Positions 1 to 20,355 of a DNA stretch of 39,172 nt are shown here, piece after piece. The DNA is from Bacillota bacterium (lineage in GTDB: Bacteria; Bacillota; Clostridia; Tissierellales; Tissierellaceae), in NCBI GenBank assembly GCA_030602225.1, contig JAUWAD010000009.1:1-39172 (forward strand). The letters run 5' to 3'. The notes under the pieces were generated by a model. It ran no database searches. It worked only from the letters and a program-made list of their open reading frames with translations, and was not told the DNA's origin. Position 1 is the stretch's first letter. Every line of letters starts with the position of its first letter. Position numbers and translations under genes: made by a program.

Positions 1-176
1 TATGCTTTTTTAAGCAAAGGAAGAGCCTTTGCATATTGATTGTAGTTAAGGTATCCATCACTCTTAGCTAATGCTAAAAAATGATTGTAGATGAATCTGC
101 TACAACCAATATTTTTGTTGATTAATGCAGCCTGTTCAGTTGTTGGGTACAATCTATATTTATAAGCTCTGTTCAT
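1..176 (-). CDS. tnpB: TnpB-type RNA-guided nuclease of an IS200/IS605 element, N-terminal part (runs off the left edge)
   Basis: Reading the minus strand from an ATG at 176 gives 58 codons without a stop before the window ends. The peptide begins MNRAYKYRLYPTTEQAAL, followed by INKNIGCSRFIYN. This is the N-terminal helix-turn-helix signature of OrfB/TnpB proteins (basic start, K-Y-R-L-Y-P-T-x-x-Q, then a G-C-x-R-x-x-x-N segment). TnpB is the transposon-encoded ancestor of Cas12 and is guided by an omega RNA made from the element's 3' end, which lies outside this window. The RuvC catalytic residues are also outside, so activity cannot be judged. A good Shine-Dalgarno (AAGGAG) lies about 9 nt upstream of the ATG. 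No tnpA lies upstream of it in the window. Confidence 0.85.
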   Translation of the reverse strand, partial: MNRAYKYRLYPTTEQAALINKNIGCSRFIYNHFLALAKSDGYLNYNQYAKALPLLKKA

Positions 177-243
177 TATACTCAACTCCTTGATATTAGT
201 ATATCACAGCTAGTTTAGTCGAACAAGTGTTTTGTAGAAATAT

Positions 244-338: not shown

Positions 339-1547
339 TTATGCTTCATACACATTAAGTGCTGCTTGTAATGCCTCTCCTCTATTTACTTTGACTCCTT
401 TTCTTATTAGAGTTGCCTCCAATGCAGATAGTACTCTTAGAACATTTTCCTTTCTACAACTATATCCCATTGAACCAATTCTCCAGATCTTTCCTGTTAA
501 GGGACCAAAAGCAGCTGCTATTTCAACACTGAAGTTTCTGATCATTTCCAATCTAACCTCAGACTCAACCACTCCATCAGGTACCATAACACATGTAACA
601 GTTGGAACCTTGTCAAACTCTTCTCCAAATATTTCAAGACCCATTGCCTCTAATCCTTCTACAAGAGCTTTTTCATTGTACTTATGTCTTTTTATTCTTT
701 CTTCAAGACTTTCTTCTTTTATTATCCTAAGACCTTCTCTTAGAGCATATAGCATGGAGGTTGCTTCTGTGTGGTGATTTAGTCTCTTAGGTGACCAGTA
801 CTCCTGTATCTGGCTTAAATCTAAATAATTAGTAGAAATCATTCTATCATTGAATGAATCCTTATCAAGTCCTTGTTCAATTTTCTTTCTCTCTAAAAGA
901 ATCTTTTCTACTCTTTCATTATATGTTAATGGAGCCATTCCAGTGGGAACTGATAAGCACTTTTGTGTTCCACCAATAACTGCATCTATTTTCCATTCAT
1001 CTGTTTTAAATTCTGTTCCTGTAAGGGTTGCGACAGAGTCTACTACTAATAGAATGTCTTTCTCTCTACAATAATGTCCCAACTCTTTTAGTGGCTGCAT
1101 TCTACCAGTTGATGTCTCTCCATGAACAATTGCTACAACTTTGGGATTAAACTCATCAATTTCTTTTTTTAGCTGTTGGAAGGAATATGTTGTTCCCCAC
1201 TCAATCTCAGTAGTGTGTACATCTCCTCCTGCTCTTTTAGATATCTCTGTTAAAAGGTGCCCGAATCTTCCAAATATGGGAACATATACCTTATCTCCCT
1301 TTTCTATTATCCCTGATAGAACAGCCTCTATTCCTGCTCTTGCAGTCCCATCAACCACGAATGTCTGCTGGTTTTCGGTTTGAAAAGTATATCTTAGTAA
1401 ATCTTGAACCTCATCCATGATATTAAGGAAATCAGGATCATATTGACCAAGTATGGGGGCACTCATTGCCCTAAGTACTCTTGGTTCCGCTTCTACAGGT
1501 CCTGGAGTCATAATAGTCCTTTGTGGTATCACTAATTCTTTATACAT
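339..1547 (-). CDS. pucG: (S)-ureidoglycine--glyoxylate aminotransferase, PucG-like
   Basis: PLP-dependent class V aminotransferase of 402 residues. It matches the PucG family throughout: TPGPVEAEPRVLRAMSAPI at the N terminus, GQYDP around Q35, WGTT at 117-120, HGETSTGR at 142-149, the PLP-contacting D170, the Schiff-base lysine K196 in GGTQKCLS, and GPLTGKIWRIGSMGYSCRKE near the C terminus. PucG transfers the amino group of ureidoglycine to glyoxylate, giving glycine and oxalurate (N-carbamoyl-2-oxoglycine). The ATG has a strong SD (AAGGAGG). It is monocistronic: its own terminator lies downstream, and a terminator separates it from the symporter upstream. Plain alanine--glyoxylate aminotransferase is the alternative, but the close match and the AllC/AllE/AllFGH neighbours favour the ureidoglycine role. 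Confidence 0.9.
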   Translation of the reverse strand: MYKELVIPQRTIMTPGPVEAEPRVLRAMSAPILGQYDPDFLNIMDEVQDLLRYTFQTENQQTFVVDGTARAGIEAVLSGIIEKGDKVYVPIFGRFGHLLTEISKRAGGDVHTTEIEWGTTYSFQQLKKEIDEFNPKVVAIVHGETSTGRMQPLKELGHYCREKDILLVVDSVATLTGTEFKTDEWKIDAVIGGTQKCLSVPTGMAPLTYNERVEKILLERKKIEQGLDKDSFNDRMISTNYLDLSQIQEYWSPKRLNHHTEATSMLYALREGLRIIKEESLEERIKRHKYNEKALVEGLEAMGLEIFGEEFDKVPTVTCVMVPDGVVESEVRLEMIRNFSVEIAAAFGPLTGKIWRIGSMGYSCRKENVLRVLSALEATLIRKGVKVNRGEALQAALNVYEA

Positions 1548-1696
1548 AAACTTACCTCCTTGTATGTGAGCTTGGCACTTGCAGCTCCCACTATCCTCTA
1601 TTACTATTTTCTTATATTTTTATCAAGAAATAACTATCAATAGTTGCTAAAGTATACATTTTTTTATGGAAGTTCTAGACAATTAAGTATAAAGGG

Positions 1697-1735
1697 AAAA
1701 CCCACTTGGCTTAAGGAACCTAAGTGGGTTTTTGG
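1697..1735 (-). terminator. Terminator between the DAACS symporter and pucG (probably bidirectional)
   Basis: An 11-bp perfect stem, AAAACCCACTT (1697-1707) against AAGTGGGTTTT (1722-1732), extends inward by two more pairs. T-runs follow on both strands. It lies about 115 nt past the symporter stop. The remainder of the 1548-1847 gap holds the pucG leader, including a small hairpin near 1566-1592 (GTGAGCT against AGCTCCCAC), and AT-rich sequence with a 14-nt palindrome at 1771-1784 of no evident role. Confidence 0.75.
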
Positions 1736-1847
1736 ATAGTTTATGCAGATTTATATATAACACATAATTTGATTTTATAAAATCTATATTTAGTACACTT
1801 TTCTTGACTTATTTTATTGGTGTAGCTAAATATCGTTGAATAATAAA

Positions 1848-3122
1848 CTATACAGTGCCTACTTCAACAGCATTCTTATACTCAACTACCACTTTCTCAT
1901 TGTATACATCGTAATTAAATTCATTAAGATCTTTTGATACCAACATAGCTATTAAAACATCGATGTCAACGTTCATAATAGTTCTAAGCATTCCTGCAAA
2001 CCAGTCTATTCCAATTAGGATTGCTATACTTTCCATTGGTAATCCCAATGTTGTGGCGAAGAAAGTATAAACTACAACTGAACCACCTGGTACTACTATT
2101 GTTCCCATTGTCATCATTGCTGCAAGTAAAACTCCTGTCATCATTTCTACTGTAGTTAATACTGTTCCAGTAGATTGTGCCATAAATAAAATTGCTAAAA
2201 CATAACATGCAACCGCCCCTGAACTATTCATGGTCATAGTAATAGGTCCTGTAAAGTCAGCAACCTTTCTACTAACACCAAACTTAGTAACTGAATCTTC
2301 CATCTTGGTTGGAAGGCATATTGCACTTGAAGTGATTGTTAATGCCATTATAGACATTTTAGCAAACTTCTTAGGCATTTTCAGTGGATTTACACCAACT
2401 CTAACAGCTGTATAAGGTATGTATAGTGCAAACATTATAAGATCTGCAATTAAAAGTGCCATTAAGAACTTAATCATAGGCATGATAACATCGAATCCTG
2501 TAGTTGCTGCAACTCCTCCCAAAAGAGCAAAAATTCCTATAGGTGCAAACTTCATAACCATCTCAATAATTTGGAGAACTACTCCATTTACATCTTTTAA
2601 AAATGACAAGATATTATCTCTTCCAGTAATTTGAGCATATTTACCAGCAGCTAAACCGAATAAAAGTGAAAATACTATAGCTTGTACTGTTGCTCCTTGG
2701 CTCATTGCTGCAAATATATTAGTTGGTACAAAGTTTACTATTGTATCGATAATTGAAACTGATCCCAAAGTACTTTCTGTAGTTTCAACTCCTGTAGCTA
2801 TGTTTATTCCTACTCCTGGTTGGATTAATAAAGCAAGACCCAGTCCAATGAATGCAGATATAAACGTAAATGAAATTATGTACTTAAATGTATGAAAACT
2901 TAGTTTGCCAGCTCCTGAACCGCCTATGCTTCCAATTGCCCCCGCTACAGATGTCATTATCAATGCTATAATAGACATTTGAATCAATCTTAACCAGATT
3001 GTACCAATAAACTGTATGTTTTTCATTGGCTCTCCTATTAGAGACCCTAGAATCAATGCAAGTGCACTGGCTAATACTATTTGCGATGTAATAGATAAAG
3101 TTTTTTTCTTCGTAATAGACAT
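1848..3122 (-). CDS. DAACS-family (dicarboxylate/amino acid:cation) symporter with an altered substrate site
   Basis: A 424-residue polytopic membrane protein with about eight hydrophobic segments and two re-entrant hairpins, as in GltP/DctA relatives. The first hairpin motif is TITSSAICLPTKMEDS (262-277, family SSSATLP). The TM7 motif reads MNSSGA (298-303) in place of the usual NMDGTA. TM8 reads IDWFAGMLRTIMNV (372-385), keeping the substrate-carboxylate arginine (R380) and N384, but with Gly377 where amino-acid transporters have the aspartate that holds the substrate amino group. This suggests a carboxylate without a free alpha-amino group. Given the neighbours, an allantoate-like ureido acid or a dicarboxylate are candidates; this is inference. 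SD GGAGAGGAG precedes the ATG. It lies 176 nt downstream of allC on the same strand, with its own candidate promoter. Confidence 0.8.
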   Translation of the reverse strand: MSITKKKTLSITSQIVLASALALILGSLIGEPMKNIQFIGTIWLRLIQMSIIALIMTSVAGAIGSIGGSGAGKLSFHTFKYIISFTFISAFIGLGLALLIQPGVGINIATGVETTESTLGSVSIIDTIVNFVPTNIFAAMSQGATVQAIVFSLLFGLAAGKYAQITGRDNILSFLKDVNGVVLQIIEMVMKFAPIGIFALLGGVAATTGFDVIMPMIKFLMALLIADLIMFALYIPYTAVRVGVNPLKMPKKFAKMSIMALTITSSAICLPTKMEDSVTKFGVSRKVADFTGPITMTMNSSGAVACYVLAILFMAQSTGTVLTTVEMMTGVLLAAMMTMGTIVVPGGSVVVYTFFATTLGLPMESIAILIGIDWFAGMLRTIMNVDIDVLIAMLVSKDLNEFNYDVYNEKVVVEYKNAVEVGTV

Positions 3123-3179
3123 GATTTCTCTCCTCTCCAGACATAATTTTTCCTTAACTATAGAATAATTCCAATAGAT

Positions 3180-3210
3180 TTTATACTATTTTTAGCACCC
3201 CCTTGGTCAA
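3180..3210 (-). promoter_or_regulatory. Candidate promoter of the DAACS symporter, overlapping a PucR-box-like sequence
   Basis: On the minus strand, TTGACC (3210-3205) and TATAAA (3185-3180) are 19 nt apart, which is slightly long. The opposite strand reads CCTTGGTCAA over the -35, close to the C-N-TTGGTTAA core reported for B. subtilis PucR boxes. Both calls are by eye. Confidence 0.3.
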
Positions 3211-3298
3211 AATTATTCTTATTAAGCTCGTTTCATTTTCTATCATCTGACTCATAGTGTTATTATAAATTATAGTTCTGAAAATCTATCTAACACTT

Positions 3299-4540
3299 TT
3301 AATAAGCTAGATCATAGAACATTTCTTTCAGAAGTTCCACTCCATATACATAATCTTCTGGATCAGTAAACTCCAAGTAACTATGACTGATTCCTTTCCT
3401 ACTTGGAACAAAAATTAAAGCTGTTGGTATTTTAGGGGCAAAGATTTGTGCATCGTGACCCGCACCACTATGCATTATTTTATAATCTAACTCTTTTGCA
3501 AGACAAATTTTCTCCATCTTGTTTATAAGGTCTTCATCCATAGGGACTGGATATCCATCCATGTATTGATCTATCTTAATTTTTAAGTTCATCTCATTAG
3601 CTATTGACTCAATTGATGCCTTAAATTTACTAATAAAATCACTCACTACTTCATTATTTGTATGTCTTGTATCAACCGAAAATACAACTTTTCCTGGAAC
3701 AACGTTACTTGTATTAGGGACTACATCTAATCTACCAACTGTTGCTACTAAAGGATCTCCATATTCCTTGCTAAGTTCAATAATTGAATCAATCATTTTT
3801 GCAGCACCGTGTAATGAGTCTCTTCTATAACTCATAGGTGTTGTACCAGCATGATTTGATTCTCCTTCGACCTCTATTAGAAATCTTTTTTGACCAACAA
3901 TGCTATTTACTAATCCAATGGGTTTTCCTTCTTTTTCAAGGACCCCACCTTGTTCGATGTGTAGTTCCAAATAAGCTTTTATATCGTCTCTAATAACAGC
4001 ATTTTCATTTTTGAAATCAAATCCTTTACCTTTCATGGCTTCGGCAAAGCTAACACCATCATGATCAACTAGTTTCTCAACCTCTTCTTTAGAAACTGTA
4101 CCAACAATATTCTTAGATCCCCAGAAAGTATAAGGAAATCTACTTCCTTCTTCTTCTGCCATAGATACGATTTCCAGGTTCTTTTTGGGCACTCCAAATT
4201 CTTCTACCAATTTCTCTATTGCTATAATTCCAGATACTATACCCAACTGCCCATCAAGTCTTCCCCCGCCAACTACTGTATCAATATGAGATCCTACCAT
4301 AATAGTTTCAGTAGCTTGCTCCGTACCTTTAACCATACCATACAAATTTCCAACTTCATCAAACCTAGTTTTAAGGCCTCTTTTTACCATTTCTGATTCT
4401 AAAAACTTTTGTGTATCCATCCAAATATCACTAAACAATGTTCTTGTTATTCCATTATTTTCAGTCTTCCCATACTCACTCAATTCTTCTATTAAATTTG
4501 ATACTTCATTCTTTAAATTATTTCTTTTACTTAAGTCCAA
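3299..4540 (-). CDS. allC: Allantoate amidohydrolase (M20 metallopeptidase family)
   Basis: This 413-residue M20/M28-fold amidohydrolase belongs to the AllC/PucF/N-carbamoyl-amino-acid hydrolase group. The two-metal site is complete: H85 in GSHIDTV, D96 in GRLDGQLG, the acidic run E129-E131 in AEEEGSRF, H194 in LELHIEQG, and H386 in ISHS. The lid domain has NHAGTTPM (229-236) with R240, NTSNVVPG (276-283) and R292. The SGAGHDAQ motif (358-365) is typical of allantoate amidohydrolases, which convert allantoate to (S)-ureidoglycine, CO2 and ammonia. A ureidopropionase or hydantoinase-partner carbamoylase is the alternative, but the AllE and PucG neighbours argue for allantoate. The start is a TTG placed 8 nt after AAAGGGG. 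Upstream lies the small cupin gene on the same strand. Confidence 0.85.
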   Translation of the reverse strand: MDLSKRNNLKNEVSNLIEELSEYGKTENNGITRTLFSDIWMDTQKFLESEMVKRGLKTRFDEVGNLYGMVKGTEQATETIMVGSHIDTVVGGGRLDGQLGIVSGIIAIEKLVEEFGVPKKNLEIVSMAEEEGSRFPYTFWGSKNIVGTVSKEEVEKLVDHDGVSFAEAMKGKGFDFKNENAVIRDDIKAYLELHIEQGGVLEKEGKPIGLVNSIVGQKRFLIEVEGESNHAGTTPMSYRRDSLHGAAKMIDSIIELSKEYGDPLVATVGRLDVVPNTSNVVPGKVVFSVDTRHTNNEVVSDFISKFKASIESIANEMNLKIKIDQYMDGYPVPMDEDLINKMEKICLAKELDYKIMHSGAGHDAQIFAPKIPTALIFVPSRKGISHSYLEFTDPEDYVYGVELLKEMFYDLAY

Positions 4541-4610
4541 AATAACTACCCCTTTCCAAGTTACAGATTAAAAATTAATAATATATACCTGTATAAACCC
4601 ACTAAATATA

Positions 4611-4958
4611 TTATGAGTACAAAATTAACATTATATACTCTAAATCCTCATTCCCGATGGATTCGATTGAATGATAATCCCCATCTTTGCAAATAGCTAA
4701 ATCTCCAGGCTTTAAACAAATTTCTTTGCCATTGTCAATATATTTTGCCTCACCTTTTAAAATGAAGTAAGCTTCTTGATCTCCAGAATGTTGATGATAT
4801 CCGATTGAGTGTCCTGGTTTTATAACTGACTTACCATATAGTCTTCCCTTTCCTAAAAAATCTTCCTGATTAAAAAAATTAATTACTCTGACAAAACCTT
4901 TTCCACCTTTTAAACTCTCAATATCCTCTATCAACATTTCCTCATATGTTCTTATCAA
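4611..4958 (-). CDS. Small single-domain cupin protein of unknown function in the allantoate cluster
   Basis: A 115-residue protein consisting of one cupin_2 barrel. Both metal motifs are intact: G-Y-H-Q-H-S-G-D-Q-E-A-Y then ILKG (motif 1, two His and one Glu), and KPGDLAICKDGDYHSIE (motif 2, third His). No other domain or signal peptide is visible. I chose the TTG at 4958, which lies 8 nt after a perfect AGGAGG; the in-frame GTG nine bases upstream overlaps that SD and is unlikely. It sits between allC and the divergent allE, so a role in ureidoglycine/ureidoglycolate metabolism is plausible. No ureidoglycolate lyase is present in the window, and this is a weak candidate for that gap. Substrate unknown. 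Confidence 0.7.
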   Translation of the reverse strand: MIRTYEEMLIEDIESLKGGKGFVRVINFFNQEDFLGKGRLYGKSVIKPGHSIGYHQHSGDQEAYFILKGEAKYIDNGKEICLKPGDLAICKDGDYHSIESIGNEDLEYIMLILYS

Positions 4959-5269
4959 AAGAAACACCTCCTAACCTAAGTATTAGTAATAAAGATTTCA
5001 TGAAATATGTAAACGATTTCTTATAGTACTGATATTATCATTTTAACTAGAATAATGTTGGATAAACTAATGTTGGTGCTTTTATCTATTATTGATAATC
5101 TATTAACAACTACCCACTTTTTCAGTTTTTCTTATACTTGTTTTACTATAAATATGACAATATATTTTTTATTTTTATCCTCTATTGCTAATGGTTTTTC
5201 TAATGATAAAATCAATAATATATATGTATGGTTGTGTGGATAAATATTTATTATGAAGGGAGCAGTAAT
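4959..5269. other. Divergent intergenic region between the cupin gene and allE
   Basis: About 311 nt, very AT-rich, carrying the SDs of both divergent genes and a candidate allE promoter. TTGGATAA occurs near 5058-5065 and a related TGTGGATAA near 5235-5243; the first resembles repeats in the allF/permease intergenic region. A 62-codon open frame at 5055-5243 lacks an SD and looks non-coding. No RNA gene is recognised. Confidence 0.5.
5138..5166 (+). promoter_or_regulatory. Candidate sigma-A promoter of allE
   Basis: TTGTTT (5138-5143), a 17-nt spacer and TATATT (5161-5166) lie upstream of allE and imply a leader of about 100 nt. Confidence 0.35.
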
Positions 5270-6034
5270 ATGGGTTATAGAAATGATTTACTTAGTAGTA
5301 GAGCAATTATTAAGCATGGTAGTTTTGCTCTTATACCACCAGATGGATTGGTAAATAACGTATTGCCTAATTTTGAAGGAGCAACTTTAAGTATAATAGC
5401 ATCTCCTAAACTAGGAGCTAGCTTTGTGGAGTACCTTGTTGAGTTTGAGCCAGGTGGTGGTAATAGAAGAGGATTTGGCGGAGATGGAGTTGAAACCTTT
5501 GTCTATGTTATCAGCGGAGAACTGGAAATAAATGTGGAGGAAGAAATTTATGTCTTAGAGGAACAGGGATACTTATTCTGTCCACCTAGTAAAAGCATTA
5601 TTATGACAAATAAATCAGATTCTCCAGTTAAATTGGTACTGTACAAGCAAAGATATATACCGGTTGAAGGAGTAAATGAGCCTTGGCTAATTTGTGATAA
5701 TGTTAAAAATCTACCTGTTGTCAACTACTCCGATATGGAAGATGTTACATTAGTTGACTTTTTGCCTACCAGTGTAGAATTTGATATGAACTTTCACATA
5801 TTAACTTTCCAACCAGGAGGATCACATCCTTTTATAGAGACACATGTACAAGAACATGGTGCTTATCTACTATCTGGAGAAGGAATGTATAATTTAGATA
5901 ATGACTGGATATCAGTTAAAAAAGGTGATTTCATCTGGATGGGACCATTTGTTCATCAAGCAACCTATGCTGTTGGTATGGACCCATTATCCTATGTTTA
6001 CTCCAAAGACTGTAATAGAGATCCTGAAATATAG
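5270..6034 (+). CDS. allE: (S)-ureidoglycine aminohydrolase (bicupin)
   Basis: A 254-residue bicupin that closely follows E. coli AllE (YlbA): RAIIKHGSFALIPPDGL near the N terminus, SPKLGASFVEYL, GFGGDGVETFVYVISGE, then the C-terminal cupin. Predicted Mn ligands are E190, H192 and H196 in FIETHVQEHGAYLLSGEG, and Q230 in VHQATY; the protein ends YSKDCNRDPEI. It hydrolyses (S)-ureidoglycine to (S)-ureidoglycolate and ammonia, so it competes with PucG for the product of AllC. The ATG at 5270 has GAAGGGAG upstream; an in-frame GTG/ATG extension 14 codons longer lacks an SD and family similarity. It is transcribed toward oriC, against the local strand bias. A bidirectional terminator follows. Confidence 0.95.
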   Translation: MGYRNDLLSSRAIIKHGSFALIPPDGLVNNVLPNFEGATLSIIASPKLGASFVEYLVEFEPGGGNRRGFGGDGVETFVYVISGELEINVEEEIYVLEEQGYLFCPPSKSIIMTNKSDSPVKLVLYKQRYIPVEGVNEPWLICDNVKNLPVVNYSDMEDVTLVDFLPTSVEFDMNFHILTFQPGGSHPFIETHVQEHGAYLLSGEGMYNLDNDWISVKKGDFIWMGPFVHQATYAVGMDPLSYVYSKDCNRDPEI

Positions 6035-6040
6035 CATATT

Positions 6041-6072
6041 AAAGGGCTTGGTTCGCAGGAACCAAGCCCTTT
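6041..6072. terminator. Bidirectional terminator between allE and pucR
   Basis: A perfect 14-bp stem, AAAGGGCTTGGTTC (6041-6054), loop GCAG, and its complement (6059-6072), separates two convergent genes. The stem begins with an A-run and ends with a T-run, so it can act in both directions. Confidence 0.85.
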
Positions 6073-6074
6073 AA

Positions 6075-7721
6075 TTATCCAATTATCTTTAGAATTTTCA
6101 ATCCCACTTCCAATTCTAACATCTTGTCTCTATCATCAATATCTAGATTTGTTATCTCCTTTATTCGGTTTAATCTATATAATACAGTTTTATAATGGAC
6201 AAATAATTCTTCTGCTGTTTTAACTGCATTTAAGTTGCATTTCAAATACATCTCAAATGTATCTATTAAATCATTATTCTTTTCCTTATCATATTCTTTA
6301 AGTTTTAACAGATTTTGAGGTATGAAGTCAACTAATACATTCCTATCTTCAAAACTACATAGCATTCTATATATTCCTAATTCTTCGTATACAGTTGTAC
6401 CATCTTCTCCAAATATTCTTTTCCCAAAATTCACAGCATCCTTAGATTCATTATAACTTCTTCCAATCTGTGTCATATCTTCAGCTAGACATCCAATTCC
6501 TAAGTTAACCGACACATCTCCCAGTCTCTTTTTAACAGTATTTCTGACTTCAGTTCCAAATTCTTTAAATCGCAATGTAGAATCTTTTCCAATTTCATCC
6601 TTCTCAACTGGCCAAAACACAATTATTTCTTCACCCTTTATTATTGAAATAAGGCCTGTTGTATGGTGGTATGCTATTCTATCGATTATTGTTTTTACTG
6701 TTTCTCTTGATTCCATTAACCACTCAGTTAATGATTCCTTCATCTTTATGGATTTTGGCTTAATAGAAAATATCCCGATATTATATGATTTCCTTAAATC
6801 CCAACCTAGTATGAACCCTCTATCGTACATACTTTGGAGAGAATCGTACTTACCATTAATAAGATCTTCCATTAAGTCGCCTTTGTATCTTAATTGAGAT
6901 TCATTTACCGCAGTTTGTTTCAATATTTCAAGCCTTAATGTATTTGCAGCACTTTCCAATGCAATAAAATCCAATTCCTTAGGGCTACTATTTACTTCTA
7001 CAATTCCTAAATAAGCTTGTATTTTATTTACAACTTCAATTGGTTCAACTGTCAAATGATAAAGAGTATCATCTTTCTCGAATTTCATGTCTATACCGAA
7101 GATAGGATACCCTTCGTATACCATTTTTCGCATTTTCTTCTCTACTATATTTAAATCAGAATAATTTTCATCACTATAGGCTAATATTCTCATTTCATTA
7201 TCAAATATAATAACTGGATTATTAATCAACTCTTCAAGGGTTTGAGCCACAGACTCAATTCCTTTCATACTTAATGAGAGATTATTAAATCTAACATGAC
7301 ACTCTTTATAATAATTAAGTCTCATTACCTGGTCATTAAACAAAATTCCCATAACAGGATAAAGAATATCAATATATTTTCTCTCCCTTGGAATCTCGAT
7401 TATGGGAAATCCAATTGCATTAGATTTATCAATGATTGTTTGGCTTATTCTCTCATACGTAACTGATGTTTTAATAACTATACCAGCAGCACCATTCTTA
7501 GCTACTTCTTCCACTAGCTTAATCTGCGCATCTAAATTATTCTCTATTGAATAAAAGCTAGTTAGAAGTAGTTCACCACCTTTAATCCAATTTGCTATAT
7601 CTGGTCTTTCTACAATAGTTATCCCTTCAACTGATATGTTTTCAATGTTATCCTCACCTGATAATAATACTGCATCATTAAAACAACTCATATCAAGGAT
7701 TTCTTTAAACATGATCCCCAT
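6075..7721 (-). CDS. pucR: PucR-family transcriptional regulator (purine catabolism)
   Basis: A 548-residue regulator with the standard PucR/CdaR layout. The N-terminal PucR domain (about 1-130) includes GEDNIENISVEGITIVERPD and WIKGGELLLTS. A central region has the degenerate GGDEF-like fold (about 280-430). The C-terminal HTH_30 (about 485-545) reads FEMYLKCNLNAVKTAEELF, then HYKTVLYRLNRIKEITNLD. PucR controls purine-degradation genes in B. subtilis, and the ligand there is thought to be a pathway intermediate. Its place between allE and the allK-allH-allG-allF operon suggests it regulates the cluster. The start is uncertain: ATG at 7721 or 7712, or a GTG at 7733; none has a strong SD. Confidence 0.85.
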   Translation of the reverse strand: MGIMFKEILDMSCFNDAVLLSGEDNIENISVEGITIVERPDIANWIKGGELLLTSFYSIENNLDAQIKLVEEVAKNGAAGIVIKTSVTYERISQTIIDKSNAIGFPIIEIPRERKYIDILYPVMGILFNDQVMRLNYYKECHVRFNNLSLSMKGIESVAQTLEELINNPVIIFDNEMRILAYSDENYSDLNIVEKKMRKMVYEGYPIFGIDMKFEKDDTLYHLTVEPIEVVNKIQAYLGIVEVNSSPKELDFIALESAANTLRLEILKQTAVNESQLRYKGDLMEDLINGKYDSLQSMYDRGFILGWDLRKSYNIGIFSIKPKSIKMKESLTEWLMESRETVKTIIDRIAYHHTTGLISIIKGEEIIVFWPVEKDEIGKDSTLRFKEFGTEVRNTVKKRLGDVSVNLGIGCLAEDMTQIGRSYNESKDAVNFGKRIFGEDGTTVYEELGIYRMLCSFEDRNVLVDFIPQNLLKLKEYDKEKNNDLIDTFEMYLKCNLNAVKTAEELFVHYKTVLYRLNRIKEITNLDIDDRDKMLELEVGLKILKIIG

Positions 7722-7777
7722 ATTTACACCCACTTTTTATTTGTTACTAACAATTATACAATAAATTAAACAAATAA

Positions 7778-7813
7778 CAACAGCCCTCACATGAAATCAT
7801 ATGAGGGTTGTTC
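7778..7813 (-). terminator. Terminator of the allF-allG-allH-allK operon
   Basis: AACAACCCTCATATGA pairs with a near-complement, with one G.T mismatch position, across a short AT loop just past the allK stop. It separates that operon from pucR downstream. Confidence 0.7.
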
Positions 7814-8746
7814 TTAGTTGCTAATAAGTGTTCCGGTTTTTCCATTTATTGCTTCTTTTGCATTTTCCAGAGATGTTATTATGGCAGTTCTCCCATTATT
7901 TGATCTCACAAACTCCATAGCAGATATAACCTTGGGAAGCATGCTACCTGGTGCAAAATGGCCTTCATTTACGTATTCTTCCATTTCCTTTAAATTAGCT
8001 TTTCTAAGTTGCCTTTGTGTAGGCTTTCCAAAATCAAGAAGTATTGTCTCAACAGCAGTGAGAATGAATAAAGTGTCGCAATCTAGAAGTTCTGCTAATT
8101 TCTCACTTGCAAGATCCTTGTCTATAACCGCGGATACTCCTTTTAGTTGACCATTTTCTTCCACTGTAGGTATTCCACCGCCACCTACAGCAATTACCAC
8201 ATGCCCTTTTTCAACAAGATCCCTTATTACTTCAATTTCCACTATACCCAATGGTTTTGGAGAAGGGACTACCCTTCTATAACCTCTTCCTGAGTCTTCA
8301 ACCATAGTATAGCCTTTAGTTTTAGCTAGTTCCTTAGCTTCTTCCTTAGTATAGAAACCTCCTATAGGTTTTGTTGGATTTTCAAATGCAGGATCATCAC
8401 CATCAACCAATACTTGAGTTACTATAGATGCAACATTTTTTTGTACACCTCTAGTTATTAACTCATTTCTTAAGGCCATCTGTAAATGATATCCTATATA
8501 CCCCTGGCTCATAGAACCACATTCTGGAAACTGAACCAATGGAATCTTATCATTAGTCTTATTTCCTACTTCAAATGCAAGATTAATCATACCAACCTGA
8601 GGTCCATTACCATGGGCAATAACCACATGATGACCATCTTCAATCAGGTCAACTATTGGTTTGGCAGTTTCTTTAACTAGAGATAGCTGTTCTTGTGGAG
8701 TATTTCCTAGTGCATTTCCACCTAAGGCAATCATTATTTTACTCAT
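7814..8746 (-). CDS. allK: Carbamate kinase (AllK/ArcC family)
   Basis: A complete 310-residue amino-acid-kinase-fold enzyme: MIALGGNALG (5-14), HGNGPQVG (45-52), FPECGSMSQGYIG, GRGYRRVVPSPKP (153-165), and AVGGGGIP (186-193) with the following DKDLASE. It transfers the phosphate of carbamoyl phosphate to ADP, yielding ATP and carbamate. Its ATG overlaps the allH stop codon (ATGA), which implies translational coupling. Being last in the allF-allG-allH operon, it most likely consumes the carbamoyl phosphate released by that complex, as ybcF/allK does in E. coli allantoin fermentation. A role in arginine-deiminase metabolism (arcC) is less likely because no arcA or arcB is nearby. Confidence 0.93.
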   Translation of the reverse strand: MSKIMIALGGNALGNTPQEQLSLVKETAKPIVDLIEDGHHVVIAHGNGPQVGMINLAFEVGNKTNDKIPLVQFPECGSMSQGYIGYHLQMALRNELITRGVQKNVASIVTQVLVDGDDPAFENPTKPIGGFYTKEEAKELAKTKGYTMVEDSGRGYRRVVPSPKPLGIVEIEVIRDLVEKGHVVIAVGGGGIPTVEENGQLKGVSAVIDKDLASEKLAELLDCDTLFILTAVETILLDFGKPTQRQLRKANLKEMEEYVNEGHFAPGSMLPKVISAMEFVRSNNGRTAIITSLENAKEAINGKTGTLISN

Positions 8747-9585
8747 ACAATTTTCTCCTCTCTATAGATTTGGAGATTGTTATTTAGACTGACATAACCC
8801 GCCACTACACCAAGAAATGTGTCAACCCCAGAAGTTTCTCCATGTTGTACTAAATCCTTTAATGACTTTTCATCATAAATGTTCAGTTGAATGTAGTTTA
8901 CTAATCTTATGATATTTTGACTAAATTCTCCCCTTAATGCTTTTAATATATAATCTGCACCAATATCAGTTGTATACTTGTGTATATTTCTCACCAATTC
9001 TTGTTTTACTTCATGAAAATCCTCATCAAAATAATTATTTGCAAATAACGAAGCTAGAAAACCTACAAAAAAGTCATCTCCAGATGGTGTTAAACCCTCA
9101 CCTCTGCCTATAATTAATCTTAAATCATTAATATCTGATGTGGTTATTATTCTATTGATGAGATTTCCAACTTCATTTAATGTAGCTGGATAGAACTTCC
9201 TCTTCAAAATCCCATGAATTTCAGTATTTAAGATGCCTAATCCATTTCTCTTGTTCAATTCTAGAAACTTCTTGAAGTAAATACTCAAAATTCTAATATC
9301 AGGTAGAATTGGATAATTTAATATTTTCGAGTTGTATTTGTATGAGTTTGATGGTTCCAGGACAAAGTTCTTGTCTTGGATCCAATCTAGGTCCCCCTCC
9401 TCAACAATCACACCAAGTGGCGGTAATACATCTTTAATAGTAGTAAAAACCATCATTCCATGATTGGTTTTTACATTAATTGTATTCTTAAAAACACTGT
9501 GAATATTAATTTCTTTCTCCAGTTCCAATACTTTTAATGTGTTAATATCTATTGCAACTGGTTTAATTTTTTTCTTCCTCTGCAT
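8743..9585 (-). CDS. allH: Oxamate carbamoyltransferase subunit AllH (DUF2877 family)
   Basis: A 280-residue DUF2877 protein. The conserved block GRGEGLTPSGDD (160-171) and the C-terminal HGETSGVDTFLG match the E. coli YlbF family, shown in E. coli to be one of three proteins needed for oxamate (oxamic) transcarbamylase. The enzyme phosphorolyses oxalurate to oxamate and carbamoyl phosphate. The individual role of this subunit is not known to me. The 5' end overlaps allG by 23 nt and the 3' end overlaps allK by 4 nt. The ATG at 9585 has GGTGG about 6 nt upstream, inside allG. Confidence 0.85.
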   Translation of the reverse strand: MQRKKKIKPVAIDINTLKVLELEKEINIHSVFKNTINVKTNHGMMVFTTIKDVLPPLGVIVEEGDLDWIQDKNFVLEPSNSYKYNSKILNYPILPDIRILSIYFKKFLELNKRNGLGILNTEIHGILKRKFYPATLNEVGNLINRIITTSDINDLRLIIGRGEGLTPSGDDFFVGFLASLFANNYFDEDFHEVKQELVRNIHKYTTDIGADYILKALRGEFSQNIIRLVNYIQLNIYDEKSLKDLVQHGETSGVDTFLGVVAGYVSLNNNLQIYREEKIV

Positions 9586-10831
9586 ATTTTTCCACCAATC
9601 CTTTTAAAGCCTGTGTAAAACAACCATATGGTGCTCTAACAGTACCAGCGCCAATCTGACCAACTCCTGCTTTTTTATGTGCAATGCCAGTATTAATAAG
9701 TGGTGTAATGCCAGTCTCCACAACCTTTCTTACATCAATTCCAACAACTGCACCTTTAAAATCCCAGGTGGGTATTGCTAAATTTTGGTTGTGAGAAAAT
9801 GTAATTTCCTCCATTTCATCACTTATCTCTTGGGCAGCATTAAATCCATCTGCACCTACGAATCTAGTAACTCCTGGTGCAGCAATCATAGCCATTCCAC
9901 CAACTCCAAAAGTTTCTGTAATAGCACTATCTCCCATATCCATATTTGCTTCTTCCTGAGAATAACCAGTAAAGAATAAACCCTTAGGCATGTTAACGGG
10001 AGCTACAAACCACCTTTCACCCAATCCTGATACTTTTATTGCAAACTCTTTGCCATTCCTAGTCATTGCAGTTACTATGGTTCCTTCTCCAATGGATTTT
10101 GCTGCATCCATAACTGATTTGCAATAAGCCATTGCAATGTTTAGGAAGAACTGATCTGTATCTGCTAAAAATTTCGTTACTGCTATCAAATCTTCTTTAG
10201 GTATATCAAGTTGTTGAATGTATGGTGTTATATCCTTCATAAAAAGTGCTGATGCTGCAATGTTTCTCTGGTGGAATTCATCACCCATGGTTAATGCTTT
10301 CGCTACAATAACATTTAGGTTCATACCTCCATCTATAAGTTTTAAGGCATTGGATAAGGTAGGTCCTAGAGTGTTTTTCATCCAATGAAGCCTGTTTATT
10401 ACTTCCTCACTATATGCACCAAACCTAAGAACTTTACCTATGCCTTCATTCAAATTACAATAGGCCTTATTGCCATGTTCTTTGTTTTCCACCACTAGTA
10501 CTGGCATATTACCTGAAGTTATCCCACCCATGGGTCCTACTGCGTTTACGTCATGACAGGGAATAAACTCTATTTCACCTTTTTCCAGCATACTGTGGGC
10601 TTCTTCCTTTGATTTAGCCCAACCTTCAAACAGCACTGCACCATAGCATGATCCCTGCATTGGTTCAGTCATTTCTTCCCATTTTATAGGAGGACCTGCA
10701 TGTAATAAAACCTTATCCTCTAACTTATTGATAACTGACTTTGCTGGAACAACATCCACTAAGAATGGTTGTGCTGCAAGGATTTTTTCTACTACTGCAT
10801 CATTTGCCTTATCTAAATTCTCATATAACAT
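9563..10831 (-). CDS. allG: Oxamate carbamoyltransferase subunit AllG (DUF1116 family)
   Basis: A 422-residue DUF1116 protein (E. coli YlbE family). Conserved segments include LLHAGPPIKWEEMTEPMQG (42-60), CHDVNAVGPMGGITSGNMP (92-110), NLNEGIGKVLRFGAY (126-140), HWMKNTLGPTLSNAL (149-163), FFTGYSQEEANMDMGDSAI and MAMIAAPGVTRFVG. With AllF and AllH it forms the oxamate transcarbamylase acting on oxalurate. It starts 11 nt after the allF stop, with an SD of GGAGGG. I see no truncation or frame break. Confidence 0.9.
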   Translation of the reverse strand: MLYENLDKANDAVVEKILAAQPFLVDVVPAKSVINKLEDKVLLHAGPPIKWEEMTEPMQGSCYGAVLFEGWAKSKEEAHSMLEKGEIEFIPCHDVNAVGPMGGITSGNMPVLVVENKEHGNKAYCNLNEGIGKVLRFGAYSEEVINRLHWMKNTLGPTLSNALKLIDGGMNLNVIVAKALTMGDEFHQRNIAASALFMKDITPYIQQLDIPKEDLIAVTKFLADTDQFFLNIAMAYCKSVMDAAKSIGEGTIVTAMTRNGKEFAIKVSGLGERWFVAPVNMPKGLFFTGYSQEEANMDMGDSAITETFGVGGMAMIAAPGVTRFVGADGFNAAQEISDEMEEITFSHNQNLAIPTWDFKGAVVGIDVRKVVETGITPLINTGIAHKKAGVGQIGAGTVRAPYGCFTQALKGLVEKYAEEEKN

Positions 10832-10842
10832 TATATTCCCTC

Positions 10843-12513
10843 CTATTTATCCTTAAGGATTCTTAACAATCTCTGTAGTTCTTTATCTCCACCTGCTACT
10901 GGTGACCAATTGTATTGTATTACATCCACCCCTTGATCAAATAAGGTTTGTGAGAAACTCTCCAAGCCAACATTTATAATTCTTAACTCACTATTTAGTA
11001 TATTAGGCTTAACATCCTTCTTTATATCATTCTTTTTATCTAAATACTCCACAGCTTCTTTTGCTAGTTTAGCAGCAGATGCATTTGAATCTAAAACGAG
11101 TACTCCAGATTCTTCCAGAATCCTAACCTGTTGAGAGTATACTTGCTTATCCATTTCTGTTCCGCAAACCGATGCCAGGAATACTATCTCTCTTCCACTA
11201 TCCTTATAATATTCATTTACTTCCATTATTGCTGGACCCAGTGAACCAGCCATATCCGTATTTGATCCATATCCAATAACATTATCAAGTAAAACCACTG
11301 CCACATCTTCCAATCTCTTAAGATTCTTAACTGCCTCCACTCTCGTTGTAGGATCTATCATTGGATGTGGTCTGCCTTTAGTATATTGATCATCTCCAAA
11401 ATCAATAATTCTATGCTTGGAATTTAACATACCTTCCTTGAGAATATTCTTGGACTCACCTGCAAGTGTTCCTCCACCGTAATATCCGTGAATTTGTCTT
11501 TGGTTTGGGTTCTTTTTTATAATTTCAAGTTTGCCCATAATTTTTTCTAATTTGTTCTTACTACTTCCAAATTTCTTACTTAAGTACAGGGATAAGTATG
11601 CTGTTTCTTCTAATGTATTAGCAAAGTAGACATTATCTTCCCTCTCCATTTGTCCATCGCCTAAAAATAATGCAACTACTATCTTGTTCATTGTCTTAAA
11701 CTTACTTACTATCTTCTCCTTGACTTCTTTTGCTGGTGGTTTAGATATAAATACGATTAATTCACTTGAATCATCATACTCCAGAAGCTCCAAAGCTTTC
11801 ATAGCAGAAATCCCGCCTATTTCCAAGGCCAAATCTCTTCCTCCTATGCCTATTGCATGGGATATTCCCCCTCCAAGTCTTGTTATTAAACTGGTAACCT
11901 CTTGAATCCCTGTTCCAGATGCCCCCACAACACCAATATTTCCCTTATTCACAACATTGGCAAAAGCTAAAGGTGTATTAGATATTATTCCCGTGCCACA
12001 ATCTGGTCCCATAACTATCAAGCCTTTTTCATTTGCCTTATCCTTTAGTTTTCTCTCTTCCTCCATTGACACGTTATCGCTGAATATAAACAAATTCAAA
12101 CCTTTATCTAAAAGCCTATTTCCTTCATCAAAGACATACTCTCCTGGTATTGATACCAGTGCTAAGTTTGTATTATCCATTTTTTTAATGGCAGTATCCA
12201 AGCTTCTTACCTTTATTATATTTGATCCCCTGGATGAAAGTGATAGCTCACTTATAAACTTATCTAGCTCCAATTCAACTACGCTGACCATACTTGAATC
12301 TTCTGATTCAACCGCTATACAAATATCATTTGGATTTGCTGTGTCAAACTCAACAGAGTACATGTTGGTGTTTTTAAAAATATCTTTATTTGCAGGTGTA
12401 CCCATCATAATTGAAACCTTACTAACTCCATCCATTGATGAAAGCTTTGAACTTAAGAGCATAAGGTTTACAGAGTCCTGATAAGTATTCCTTTTAACAA
12501 GTCCGAATATCAT
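10843..12513 (-). CDS. allF: Oxamate carbamoyltransferase subunit AllF (FdrA, succinyl-CoA-synthetase-like fold)
   Basis: A 556-residue FdrA-family protein that aligns with E. coli FdrA end to end: KRNTYQDSVNLMLLSSKL, MMGTPANKD, GPDCGTGIISNTPLAFANV (from about 169), VVGASGTGIQEVTS (195-208), GIGGRDLALEIGGISA, FISKPPAKEV, DFGDDQYTKGRPHPMIDPT, and QYNWSPVAGGDKELQRLL at the C terminus. The fold is shared with succinyl-CoA synthetases. I chose the ATG at 12513 with GGAG 9 nt upstream, because it matches the E. coli start. An in-frame TTG 36 nt upstream would add 12 unaligned residues. It is the first gene of the allF-allG-allH-allK operon and is divergent from the LctP-like permease. Confidence 0.92.
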   Translation of the reverse strand: MIFGLVKRNTYQDSVNLMLLSSKLSSMDGVSKVSIMMGTPANKDIFKNTNMYSVEFDTANPNDICIAVESEDSSMVSVVELELDKFISELSLSSRGSNIIKVRSLDTAIKKMDNTNLALVSIPGEYVFDEGNRLLDKGLNLFIFSDNVSMEEERKLKDKANEKGLIVMGPDCGTGIISNTPLAFANVVNKGNIGVVGASGTGIQEVTSLITRLGGGISHAIGIGGRDLALEIGGISAMKALELLEYDDSSELIVFISKPPAKEVKEKIVSKFKTMNKIVVALFLGDGQMEREDNVYFANTLEETAYLSLYLSKKFGSSKNKLEKIMGKLEIIKKNPNQRQIHGYYGGGTLAGESKNILKEGMLNSKHRIIDFGDDQYTKGRPHPMIDPTTRVEAVKNLKRLEDVAVVLLDNVIGYGSNTDMAGSLGPAIMEVNEYYKDSGREIVFLASVCGTEMDKQVYSQQVRILEESGVLVLDSNASAAKLAKEAVEYLDKKNDIKKDVKPNILNSELRIINVGLESFSQTLFDQGVDVIQYNWSPVAGGDKELQRLLRILKDK

Positions 12514-12587
12514 ATTCTCACTCTCCGATCTGATTTTCAAGAATCTCAATATCTTTACATTGAAATTCTACCATTAAAAACAATGCT

Positions 12588-12761: not shown

Positions 12762-14366
12762 ATGACACTACAATATAACTTTACATATTGGTTATTATCT
12801 TCTGCACCAATTTTACTATTGTTATTCTTTATGATGATCATGAAATTACCTGCTTTGAAAGCTGCTCCAGTAACTCTTCTTATTACTATTGTTTCGGGAT
12901 TATTTGTATTTAAGGGAGGGTTACTACTAGTTGGAGTTGAATTAGGCAAGGCTTTGTGGAATTCCATCAGTATAATATCTGTAGTAATAACTGCAATTCT
13001 ACTTTATGAAACAAGCAAGGAGGCTAATGCTTTTAGTGTACTAAATAAAGCCTTTGTAAAAATCGCACCCAATGAATTAATCAGAATACTATTAATCGGT
13101 GTAGTTTTTTCAAGCTTTCTACAAGGTGTTACTGGTTTTGGGGTTCCTATTCTGGTAACTGCACCATTATTAATAGGTATTGGAGTTTCTCCCATCTACT
13201 CTGTAGTAATACCATTAATCGGTCATTGCTGGGCTGGAACATTTGGAACTCTTGCATTAGCTTGGCATGCATTATTATTACAGGCTGATACCATCTCTCC
13301 ACAAATTATATCCCAGGCTGCAATTTATACTTCAATATTACTTGGTATACTAAACCTTGTATCTGGTATGATGATAGCATATATCTATGGTGGCTTTACA
13401 GGCCTCAGAAAGGGCTTTGTAGCGGTTTTGTTAATCTCTTTGACCCAATCGATAGGCCAGGTGATAATTACCCAAATAAACCCTGATTTAGGGGTCTTCA
13501 TTCCAAGTACCATGTCGGCTCTGGTATTGTATTTGCTTTCAAAATCATCACTATATAAGAATAATTGGAAGTTTGAAAAATCCAAGATAATAATTCTCAA
13601 AGAGTTTAATGGTGAAAATGAAACTGAAAATCTAAAAGTTTATGAAGCTTTCTTGCCTTATATTATTATGACCATCTTAACATTGGTGATTTTATTAGTT
13701 CCAACTGTTAATCAGTTGTTTGGACGAATAAGTTTTGGTCCTTCTTTTCCAGAGACTATATCTGGCTTTGGGGTATTGAATAATTCAGTATATACTTATT
13801 CACCAATAAAACCATTTACACATGCTTCATTTCTTCTACTTCTATCCTCCCTATCTGGATATATCTACTATAGAAGAATTGGAGAGATCCAAAAAAACAG
13901 ATTTGGATTAGTATTGGGAAGAACATTAAGAAAAGCAATTCCATCAAGTATTGCAGTTATATCATTGATCTCAATATCAAGGATAATGACTGGTACTGGA
14001 CAAACTGAAATACTAGCTGTGGGAGTGTCCTCGTTGTTTGGATACTACTATTCACTTGTATCCCCTTTTGTGGGACTCTTAGGTGCTTTTATAACCAGTA
14101 GTAATATGTCATCGAATATACTATTTGGAGGATTTCAATATGCATCTTCATTGGTTTTGGATATTGATAGCCATCTCCTTCTTGGTGCTCAGACAGCAGG
14201 TGGAAGTATTGGCACTTCCATAGCCCCAAGTAATATTATTTTAGGTGCTACCACTGCAGGTATACTAGGCAAAGAAGGAGAGATCCTTAAAAAGAATCTC
14301 CCCTTTGTACTTATAATTACAACTATTTTTGGAATAATAACATTTCTAATTTCAAACATAAATTAA
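12762..14366 (+). CDS. LctP-family permease (lactate/glycolate permease-like)
   Basis: A 534-residue membrane protein with about a dozen hydrophobic segments, resembling the L-lactate permease (LctP/LldP/GlcA) family. Family-type segments include FLQGVTGFGVPILVTAPLL (119-137), GHCWAGTFGTLALAWHAL and GAFITSSNMSSNILFGGFQ with NIILGATTAGI late in the protein. These carriers move lactate, glycolate and other 2-hydroxy or 2-oxo monocarboxylates by proton symport. SD GGAGGT lies 7 nt before the ATG. It is divergent from the oxamate-producing operon and oriented against the local strand bias. By context it may export oxamate, which is isosteric with pyruvate, or move glyoxylate, glycolate or allantoate; the substrate is not determined by the sequence. 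Confidence 0.85.
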   Translation: MTLQYNFTYWLLSSAPILLLLFFMMIMKLPALKAAPVTLLITIVSGLFVFKGGLLLVGVELGKALWNSISIISVVITAILLYETSKEANAFSVLNKAFVKIAPNELIRILLIGVVFSSFLQGVTGFGVPILVTAPLLIGIGVSPIYSVVIPLIGHCWAGTFGTLALAWHALLLQADTISPQIISQAAIYTSILLGILNLVSGMMIAYIYGGFTGLRKGFVAVLLISLTQSIGQVIITQINPDLGVFIPSTMSALVLYLLSKSSLYKNNWKFEKSKIIILKEFNGENETENLKVYEAFLPYIIMTILTLVILLVPTVNQLFGRISFGPSFPETISGFGVLNNSVYTYSPIKPFTHASFLLLLSSLSGYIYYRRIGEIQKNRFGLVLGRTLRKAIPSSIAVISLISISRIMTGTGQTEILAVGVSSLFGYYYSLVSPFVGLLGAFITSSNMSSNILFGGFQYASSLVLDIDSHLLLGAQTAGGSIGTSIAPSNIILGATTAGILGKEGEILKKNLPFVLIITTIFGIITFLISNIN

Positions 14367-14402: not shown

Positions 14403-15839
14403 TTAATATATAAATCTACTTGGATTCTGGTTTACTCCATTAACTAAAACCTCAAAGTGAAGATGTGATCCTGTAGATCTACCTGTACTTCCCATATTTG
14501 CTATATGCTGTCCTTGATAAACCCTATCTCCTGACTTAACAAGAAGCTTACTAGCGTGGGCATATCTTGTTGTATATCCGTTTTCATGACTTATTTCCAC
14601 CATATAACCATATGATCCCTTATATCCAGAGAATGTAACTCTTCCGCCATCTGCTGCATATATTGGTGTCCCTACACTATTGGCAATATCAATACCTCTG
14701 TGCATACTTCCACCTCTCATGCCATAAGGAGAGCTTACTCTTCCCCTAGTTGGTACGATAAATGTACCTCTTGCAGCTGTTTTTGGCAATTCCTTTGTTC
14801 CTTGTAACACTATCTCTTTTTTTGGTTCTTCTATTACTATCTCTTCAATTATTTCCCTATCTGCTAAAATTCCATTATGTTTTACTTCATTCGCTACTAT
14901 TTCTGATATTCCTTTTACACCTTTTACTACTACCTTTTTCTGGTTTTTATACATGCTACTATCCTGCTGTACCTCAGTTGGATAATCCGTTGCCTCTGTA
15001 TATTCCACTTCTTCGTATGTTACAACCGTAAGTAGTGGTACAGGTACAAATAAGTTAACTTCATCACCCGGTTTTAATTTTTGAGGATCTTGACCTGGGT
15101 TTGCTTCTATTAACTCATCAACTGTAGTCTCATACATCCTAGCAATAATCCAGTAACTTTCTCCAACTTCAACAGTATGGGTTCTCATTTCTTCCTTACC
15201 TTGTTGTATGGTTTCAACTAACTGAATCATTTCTTCCTCATTTACAAAATCGCCATAATTAACTTCCACTGGCTTCATTTCAATGTTTTCTAAGAACTCA
15301 ACCTTAGTTAGAACTGATTTTCTTGTTTCTGATTCGATTACATTCACAAAAGGTTCTTTGATTCTATCCAAAACAAAATTGATTTCATCTTCCGACTTGA
15401 AAATTCCAAAACTTTCGCCATCTACAAAAAACTCTAATGCTGTAACTTTAAAGTTAATATTCCTTTCAATATTTCTTACAAGTTCATTTTTTTCAGTAAG
15501 TTCTTCGTCCTTAGCATGAGTTGGTTCAAATGTTAGCTCTTTGTCTAATACGACTTCCATGTCATATGTATTAGTTAACTTTTCTTCAACTTCGTGATAT
15601 GCTTCATGCGCTAAATCTTCGGTTCTAATAGTACCTATGTGGTTGTCCCCTAAGTATACATCAAATCCTCTGGTTTTTTCCTCATTTATTGAGTAACTAA
15701 CATAGGAAACGCTTGCTATGGTTATCGCCAAAACCATTACTACTATAATACTCAGGAACTTATTGTTATTCTTCTTATTTTTATGTGTCTTTTTTCTTCT
15801 ATTATCGTCAAAGTTAAGCGATGAAGAGTTTTGCTTCAT
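14403..15839 (-). CDS. Membrane-anchored LysM-G5-M23 peptidoglycan endopeptidase
   Basis: A 478-residue protein with a short basic cytoplasmic N terminus (many Lys/Asn), one membrane anchor at about 28-49, and an extracytoplasmic region of about 170 residues without a named domain. Then come a LysM repeat (221-266, THTVEVGESYWIIARMYE), a G5 domain (about 272-347, VVVKGVKGISEIVANEV and HNGILADREI) and a C-terminal M23 domain (about 377-472). The LytM-type zinc site is complete: H380 and D384 in HRGIDIA, H428 in RYAHAS, and H459/H461 in GSHLHFEV. It should cleave peptide crosslinks in peptidoglycan. The ATG at 15839 lies 8 nt after GGAGGAG; the upstream in-frame start has no such support. Substrate bond and physiological role are unknown. 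Confidence 0.88.
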   Translation of the reverse strand: MKQNSSSLNFDDNRRKKTHKNKKNNNKFLSIIVVMVLAITIASVSYVSYSINEEKTRGFDVYLGDNHIGTIRTEDLAHEAYHEVEEKLTNTYDMEVVLDKELTFEPTHAKDEELTEKNELVRNIERNINFKVTALEFFVDGESFGIFKSEDEINFVLDRIKEPFVNVIESETRKSVLTKVEFLENIEMKPVEVNYGDFVNEEEMIQLVETIQQGKEEMRTHTVEVGESYWIIARMYETTVDELIEANPGQDPQKLKPGDEVNLFVPVPLLTVVTYEEVEYTEATDYPTEVQQDSSMYKNQKKVVVKGVKGISEIVANEVKHNGILADREIIEEIVIEEPKKEIVLQGTKELPKTAARGTFIVPTRGRVSSPYGMRGGSMHRGIDIANSVGTPIYAADGGRVTFSGYKGSYGYMVEISHENGYTTRYAHASKLLVKSGDRVYQGQHIANMGSTGRSTGSHLHFEVLVNGVNQNPSRFIY

Positions 15840-16104
15840 TGATAAATCTCCTCCAGACCTTACCCTTCGATTTTCAGGTAATTTATTTTTGTAACCTTTT
15901 TGTAACATTCATGAAAACATTATACCAATATCGTAAAATAATTACAACATTTTATCTTAATAAATATTCTGTTAATTTAATGCGGTAATTAGTTTCCATG
16001 AAATCCTGTGTTTACCTTATTAACTAGGTTTAAGTCCTTGTCAAATATTACCATTGTGCGTAATGTGCAATTGTTACAAAAACTTAACAATTATGAAAAT
16101 CCAT

Positions 16105-16983: not shown

Positions 16984-16998
16984 GTCATTACACTCCAT

Positions 16999-17517: not shown

Positions 17518-17527
17518 GGGCTGCTCC

Positions 17528-20335: not shown

Positions 20336-20355
20336 AGTACTAACCCCTTTCAAAA

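Follow-up and report, generated by a model that had tools for sequence, protein, structure and literature searches.

A gene cluster in the window analysed here, a 39,172-nucleotide stretch of a Tissierellales genome, appears to encode an anaerobic allantoate pathway in which the aminotransferase PucG replaces the dehydrogenase AllD as the source of oxalurate; we put the probability of this reading at roughly two in three. The window, contig C134:1-39172, belongs to a draft genome of 2.08 Mb (G000; 138 contigs, 96.8% complete) that is congeneric with Gudongella sp. M17C-05 (G222). An earlier note on this DNA had named genes for PucG, AllC, AllE, AllF, AllG, AllH and AllK, and profile and structure-sequence matches over 339-12549 bear those names out. 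Scores written "x of y" are bits against the model cut-off.

The pucG product (339..1547, minus strand) is predicted to be an (S)-ureidoglycine-glyoxylate aminotransferase that makes oxalurate. In phmmer comparisons with solved structures, its best match is B. subtilis PucG (3isl, 537 bits), followed by another ureidoglycine-glyoxylate aminotransferase (3nnk, 410 bits); alanine/serine-glyoxylate-type aminotransferases score at most 286 bits. Gln35 and Asn257 fall at alignment positions that hold Gln and Asn in both 3isl and 3nnk but His and Tyr in 1vjo. They correspond to Gln37 and Asn264 in B. subtilis numbering (3isl numbering counted by hand), residues whose role in PucG was reportedly described by Ramazzina in 2010. 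PucG identity is 82-89% among the PucG genomes of the order and 60-68% to Bacilli.

The oxalurate would pass to the products of three minus-strand genes, allF (FdrA; 10843..12549, NF004760), allG (9563..10831, PF06545) and allH (8743..9585, PF11392), whose three subunits (FdrA, DUF1116, DUF2877) are of the predicted oxamate transcarbamylase type. AllG shares 64% identity with its E. coli namesake and 44% with YahG; for AllF the figures are 44% to E. coli AllF and 37% to YahF; an assignment of the two to the YahF/YahG kind was rejected on these identities. AllH has a weak resemblance to each of its two counterparts, AllH (29%) and YahE (27%). The AllF reading frame is listed from a TTG at 12549, and the FdrA profile match starts at residue 13, which fits the end at 12513 given in the earlier note; allF probably starts there. 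The carbamate kinase gene allK (7814..8746, minus strand; TIGR00746, 388 of 358 bits), whose product would use carbamoyl phosphate and ADP to form ATP, overlaps allH by 4 bases and thus stands in the allFGH gene row. The preceding steps are represented by allC (3299..4540, minus strand), a ureidoglycine-forming allantoate amidohydrolase gene, and allE (5228..6034, plus strand; TIGR03214, 338 of 200 bits), for (S)-ureidoglycine aminohydrolase. AllC is 49% identical to E. coli AllC and passes the allantoate deiminase model NF006768 (583 of 532 bits) but not the AllC model TIGR03176 (540 of 598).

The earlier note saw no allD in the cluster and named an allD elsewhere, co-expressed with this operon, as a refutation; a genome-wide search of the draft found no AllD-type protein, only one distant relative, and that refutation thus did not come about. 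This sole Ldh_2 protein of the genome (G000:C110:4102-5133) scores 184 of 496 and 200 of 356 bits against two AllD models and is 30-31% identical to E. coli AllD. Its score against a sulfolactate dehydrogenase model is 269 bits, and its best solved relative is malate dehydrogenase (355 vs 136 bits). The gene lies outside any allantoin cluster; its neighbours, judged by eye, encode a PatB-like aminotransferase and a Lon-like protease. The order's six AllD-type proteins share 52-60% identity with that of E. coli, so an AllD ought to have been picked up. It is possible that an allD is hidden in an assembly gap; T. praeacuta, discussed below, has the same pairing in a 99% complete genome with no AllD-like match genome-wide. 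A check for allA also came back negative, with PF04115 absent from the window's genome and from the 12 relatives examined.

Co-occurrence of PucG and AllFGH

The order survey scored 249 genomes for PucG, AllD-type proteins (at least 52% identity to E. coli AllD) and AllFGH-type AllG. PucG occurs in four: the window's genome, G222, Tissierella praeacuta (G237) and a genome of the same genus as T. praeacuta (G235), whose copy is broken. AllD-type proteins occur in six, none of which has PucG. AllFGH-type AllG is present in 10 genomes, three with PucG, five with AllD and two with neither. Three of the four PucG genomes therefore have AllFGH, and the chance of at least three of four among those 10 is 0.0002, with relatedness ignored. 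The AllG model matched in 35 of the 249 genomes; from the AllFGH count we dropped 23 whose rows were best against YahG or not classed, and two more (G007 and G160) whose AllG, best against the window's at 43% and 52%, has no AllF-type partner and sits on very long branches. In the phylum sample of 398 genomes, besides the window's own there was a single match at 62% (G562), and all others were at or below 54%.

In T. praeacuta, lctP-allF-allG-allH-pucG form one row on one strand with pucG last and gaps of 15, 15, -11 and 14 bases. In G235 (L225, G235:C4:28001-48000, at 15802-17573), lctP, allF and allG are gone; two allH remnants persist in two frames and a frame change divides pucG, while cupin, allC, allE, allB and permease genes are retained. 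This pattern is that of a natural co-decay, in which pucG would have decayed when its presumed outlet was lost.

Beyond the order, we took the best 80 of 301 AllG loci from 84,980 named genomes. Among these closest loci, allD lies within 10 kb in 55 and allC is nearby in 40, and 38 of the 40 also have allD. The two allC-bearing loci that have no allD are those of Gudongella M17C-05 and T. praeacuta, both of which have PucG and no AllD-type match genome-wide. A genome-wide test for PucG and AllD in 47 genomes, covering 50 of the 80 loci, found PucG in 13, of which 11, all Bacilli, also have AllD. The pairing of pucG with AllFGH where allD is lacking, for which the earlier note proposed a survey, recurs in the other Gudongella, M17C-05, and in T. 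praeacuta; in the Bacilli that have both PucG and AllFGH, AllD is found as well. The 25 loci with no allD nearby comprise nine genomes with AllD elsewhere, two with PucG and no AllD, and 14 with neither; none of the 14 has allC near AllG.

Two allD-type genes occur in 24 of the 80 loci, adjacent in many (L086, L087, L088, L102, L107, L120, L122 and 17 others). In four loci (L074, L077, L078 and G562:C3) AllG lies inside proteins 980-1013 aa long and no allF of its own was seen alongside; these are likely AllF-AllG fusions.

In a tree of 86 AllG rows, Gudongella groups with LctP-linked cassettes, whereas T. praeacuta groups with AllD-type Bacilli and Clostridium. A single clade of Gudongella and T. 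praeacuta is rejected for both AllG (p-AU 0.011) and AllF (p-AU 2.5e-6). Similar pucG genes are therefore paired with allFG of two branches, suggesting two independent pairings, and the PucG-AllFGH combination probably arose twice.

Proposed pathway and competing explanations

How would allantoate be made to yield ATP? We infer the following reactions, the flux through them and the amino acceptor of PucG. AllC would convert allantoate to (S)-ureidoglycine, part of which AllE would turn into ureidoglycolate. Ureidoglycolate would yield glyoxylate and urea, spontaneously or by a lyase, perhaps the 118-aa cupin described below. PucG would combine the remaining ureidoglycine with this glyoxylate to give oxalurate and glycine, AllFGH would split oxalurate phosphorolytically into oxamate and carbamoyl phosphate, and the latter would serve AllK in making ATP from ADP. 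The balance would be 2 allantoate + ADP + Pi -> oxamate + glycine + urea + 4 NH3 + 3 CO2 + ATP (water omitted). By this arithmetic there would be no net NADH and one ATP per two allantoate if AllE supplies the acceptor; the AllD reaction yields one NADH per turnover. The earlier note had proposed that PucG feeds AllFGH, and PucG is the only recognisable oxalurate-forming enzyme found in the genome, although the reactions themselves are read from gene content.

The earlier note also had AllE supply glyoxylate through ureidoglycolate. AllE is present, above cut-off in all four PucG genomes, but it would not suffice alone: with AllA absent, either ureidoglycolate breaks down spontaneously or some other enzyme has to cleave it. 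The guess we offer is the 118-aa cupin (4611..4967, minus strand) as a candidate ureidoglycolate lyase. Its Pfam matches are Cupin_2 (PF07883) and AraC_binding only, and it does not match the AllA family PF04115, which makes it an analogue at most. The best solved relative is 1o4t, labelled a putative oxalate decarboxylase, and the histidine/glutamate metal-site pattern of cupins is retained (read from the alignment by eye). Among 231 loci (stretches, not whole genomes) the cupin occurs in only the four PucG genomes (the window's, G222, T. praeacuta and G235), at 69-73% identity to the window's, a restriction that relatedness alone could explain. The cupin is retained in G235, which has no AllFGH, so its place is more likely ahead of oxalurate. 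In both Tissierella genomes, and in them alone, a gene between the small cupin and allC (L228 3069-4208; L225 10230-11369) encodes a class V aminotransferase resembling the aspartate-glyoxylate aminotransferase BhcA (240-243 bits, below the cut-off of 650), possibly another glyoxylate aminotransferase. Its presence in these rows points to glyoxylate being made. Downstream, glycine reductase might serve as a sink for glycine, but one selenoprotein B copy of the genome is of the betaine type (825 of 775 bits), and a second scores under both the glycine (595 of 602) and the sarcosine (616 of 800) cut-off.

Several observations weigh against a pathway running from allantoate through PucG to AllFGH. 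The glyoxylate step is a gap, since AllA is absent. Only three intact PucG-AllFGH cases with no AllD are known to us, all from one family, and the mutual exclusion of PucG and AllD among the 10 AllFGH genomes alone is not significant (Fisher p 0.17). The G235 case is one event only, from an assembly with 6% contamination, and its frame change could be an assembly error. The clade to be tested was chosen with the AllG tree already in view, and the tests on AllF and AllG concern linked genes. Gudongella M17C-05 has three distant Ldh_2 relatives (29-32%) where the window's genome has one. In the window, pucG and allFGH sit in separate rows; an assumed PucR box is not enriched (16 found vs 15.9 expected), and no upstream 10-mer is common to at least five of the nine intergenic stretches. 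The 14 AllG genomes that have neither AllD nor PucG mean that AllFGHK can be fed otherwise, and the grouping of Gudongella AllF/AllG with LctP-linked cassettes makes imported oxalurate possible. The allantoinase of the window's genome is uncertain, too. The search for allB suggested by the earlier note gave a protein narrowly over the allantoinase cut-off (G000:C23:2392-3762, 370 of 358 bits), but its gene sits in a row (L010, G000:C23 2383-10061) with genes for a nitroreductase, a TRAP transporter, an IclR-type regulator, PyrK and PyrD, and the protein may be a dihydroorotase belonging to a cluster for the use of orotate or dihydroorotate.

Among the alternatives, the one that survives best, possible though not probable, keeps PucG as the feed of AllFGH but has it draw chiefly on pyruvate or some other 2-oxo acid as acceptor, with AllE and glyoxylate as a side branch and one ATP per allantoate. 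There is no AllA to release glyoxylate, and the ureidoglycine aminotransferase class (HpxJ/PucG) is promiscuous towards acceptors. However, the retention of AllE in every PucG genome and the BhcA-like gene of T. praeacuta and G235 both speak for glyoxylate. A more elaborate form of the PucG route, a self-contained redox-neutral ureide fermentation, is rather doubtful: the cupin would be a new, AllA-unrelated lyase releasing the glyoxylate that PucG uses, AllFGH-AllK would yield the ATP, and within one family the pairing would have come together two or more times, drawing on different AllFGH stocks.

We consider it unlikely that AllFGHK and LctP form an oxalurate-import cassette independent of PucG, with PucG just recycling amino groups from ureidoglycine to glycine, as in B. 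subtilis. This explanation draws on the company that Gudongella AllF/AllG keep in the trees, namely the cassettes of G155, G161 and Acetoanaerobium pronyense, which have lctP in the vicinity and no allC, allD or allE in the stretches read; AllE of G155 and G161 is below cut-off, and lctP adjoins allF in the window also. Against it stand the T. praeacuta allFGH row that ends with pucG, the breakage of pucG in G235, where lctP-allF-allG are lost, and the fact that PucG's oxalurate would have no known outlet here other than AllFGH (oxalurate amidohydrolases were not searched for). That the distant Ldh_2 protein acts as AllD, making the pathway that of E. coli with a divergent dehydrogenase, is very improbable: it shares AllD's Pfam family and reaches 184-200 bits on the AllD models, but these scores are far under both cut-offs, sulfolactate and malate dehydrogenase fit better (on which grounds it was rejected), its 31% identity to E. 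coli AllD compares with 52-60% for the order's AllD-type proteins, its gene is not in an allantoin cluster, and T. praeacuta, where nothing of the kind matches, pairs PucG with AllFGH too.

The loci L068, L071 and L084 hold such cassettes of the allF-allG(-allH)(-allK) kind near lctP, with no allC, allD or allE in the stretch read. A gene for a PTS_EIIC_2-type membrane protein is seen in L084 by profile and in L068 as a fragment; L071 has a gene of like size only. These three cassettes are possible oxalurate importers. Plausibly, AllFGHK serves as a module for making ATP that takes three kinds of feed: AllD, PucG or outside oxalurate.

Layout of the locus and its surroundings

Along the minus strand the order is allF-allG-allH-allK, a terminator-like stem and pucR, then, with allE on the plus strand in between, cupin-allC-SDF-pucG; a strong terminator-like stem (334-307) directly follows pucG. 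Four genes of the locus were absent from the earlier note: the cupin, the transporter gene of the SDF (sodium:dicarboxylate symporter) family (1848..3122, minus strand; PF00375, 289 bits), the pucR-type regulator (6075..7733, minus strand; PF07905, PF17853, PF13556) and the lctP-type permease (12762..14366, plus strand; PF02652). The SDF transporter perhaps carries allantoate or a product. Its homologue in G240, a genome of the same family, is 78% identical to the window's and stands in the row allC-allE-allD-SDF, to be compared with cupin-allC-SDF-pucG here. The gene lctP is divergent from allF, adjoins it in T. praeacuta too and is near it in G155, G161 and Acetoanaerobium; we infer that the permease is a possible oxalurate importer or oxamate exporter.

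A promoter scan was at chance level (71 found vs 64.5 expected), the two intergenic stretches examined held no direct repeats, and a PADLOC scan of three window ORFs gave no matches. The contig starts within the apparent 5' part of an IS200/IS605-type transposase gene (1-180, minus strand; judged by eye). An origin region adjoins the ureide cluster at 19439-37312, with noc/parA, rsmG, mnmG, mnmE, jag, yidC, dnaA, dnaN, recF, gyrB and gyrA.

Relation to known systems and significance

In the E. coli ALL system, AllFGH is described as turning oxalurate into oxamate and carbamoyl phosphate, which feeds ATP formation (PMC11326118, PMC12535856), and its AllD branch as giving one ATP per allantoin (PMC12535856). 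AllC, AllE, AllFGH and AllK are common to both systems, but E. coli makes its oxalurate from ureidoglycolate by NAD-dependent AllD and has AllA, and the window's genome has neither. Since the E. coli branch gives one ATP and one NADH per allantoin, the PucG form would trade yield for redox neutrality. In the Klebsiella HPX system (HpxJ, HpxY, HpxW), oxalurate again comes from a ureidoglycine aminotransferase, a homologue of PucG (3nnk, 410 bits). K. pneumoniae is said to be devoid of AllFGH and AllK genes (PMC11326118), and with HpxY reported as an oxalurate amidohydrolase (PMC12625717) and HpxW as an oxamate amidohydrolase (PMC5270733), the HPX route would make no ATP at these two steps. B. 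subtilis shares PucG and a PucR-type regulator, but no AllFGH outlet is described for it in the portions of PMC6522883 used here. In the arginine and agmatine deiminase pathways, too, a catabolic transcarbamylase yields carbamoyl phosphate for ATP (PMC6022934); their substrates differ, however, and their transcarbamylase family is described as bearing no similarity to AllFGH (PMC11326118).

The earlier note knew of no description of the joined pathway. Our searches of the open-licence PMC literature gave no description of PucG and AllFGH as one pathway or gene pairing, and an earlier description elsewhere is possible; the word "aminotransferase" is absent from the main text of the 2024 and 2025 AllFGH papers (PMC11326118, PMC12535856). 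A link to oxamate transcarbamylase had, however, been mooted in general terms by Danchin in 2016 (PMC5270733). The enzymes are known, and it is their combination that is new in detail.

If the proposed pathway is true, oxamate transcarbamylase would be a plug-in ATP module fed by AllD, PucG or perhaps imported oxalurate, and PucG, known from B. subtilis and Klebsiella, would gain an energy-yielding outlet. The cupin would be a testable candidate for ureidoglycolate cleavage in genomes that have no AllA. T. praeacuta DSM 18095 is a type strain carrying the PucG-AllFGH pairing and is open to testing. The PucG version would free purine fermentation from NADH disposal and join it to glycine, which would matter for the energy balance of anaerobic amino-acid fermenters.

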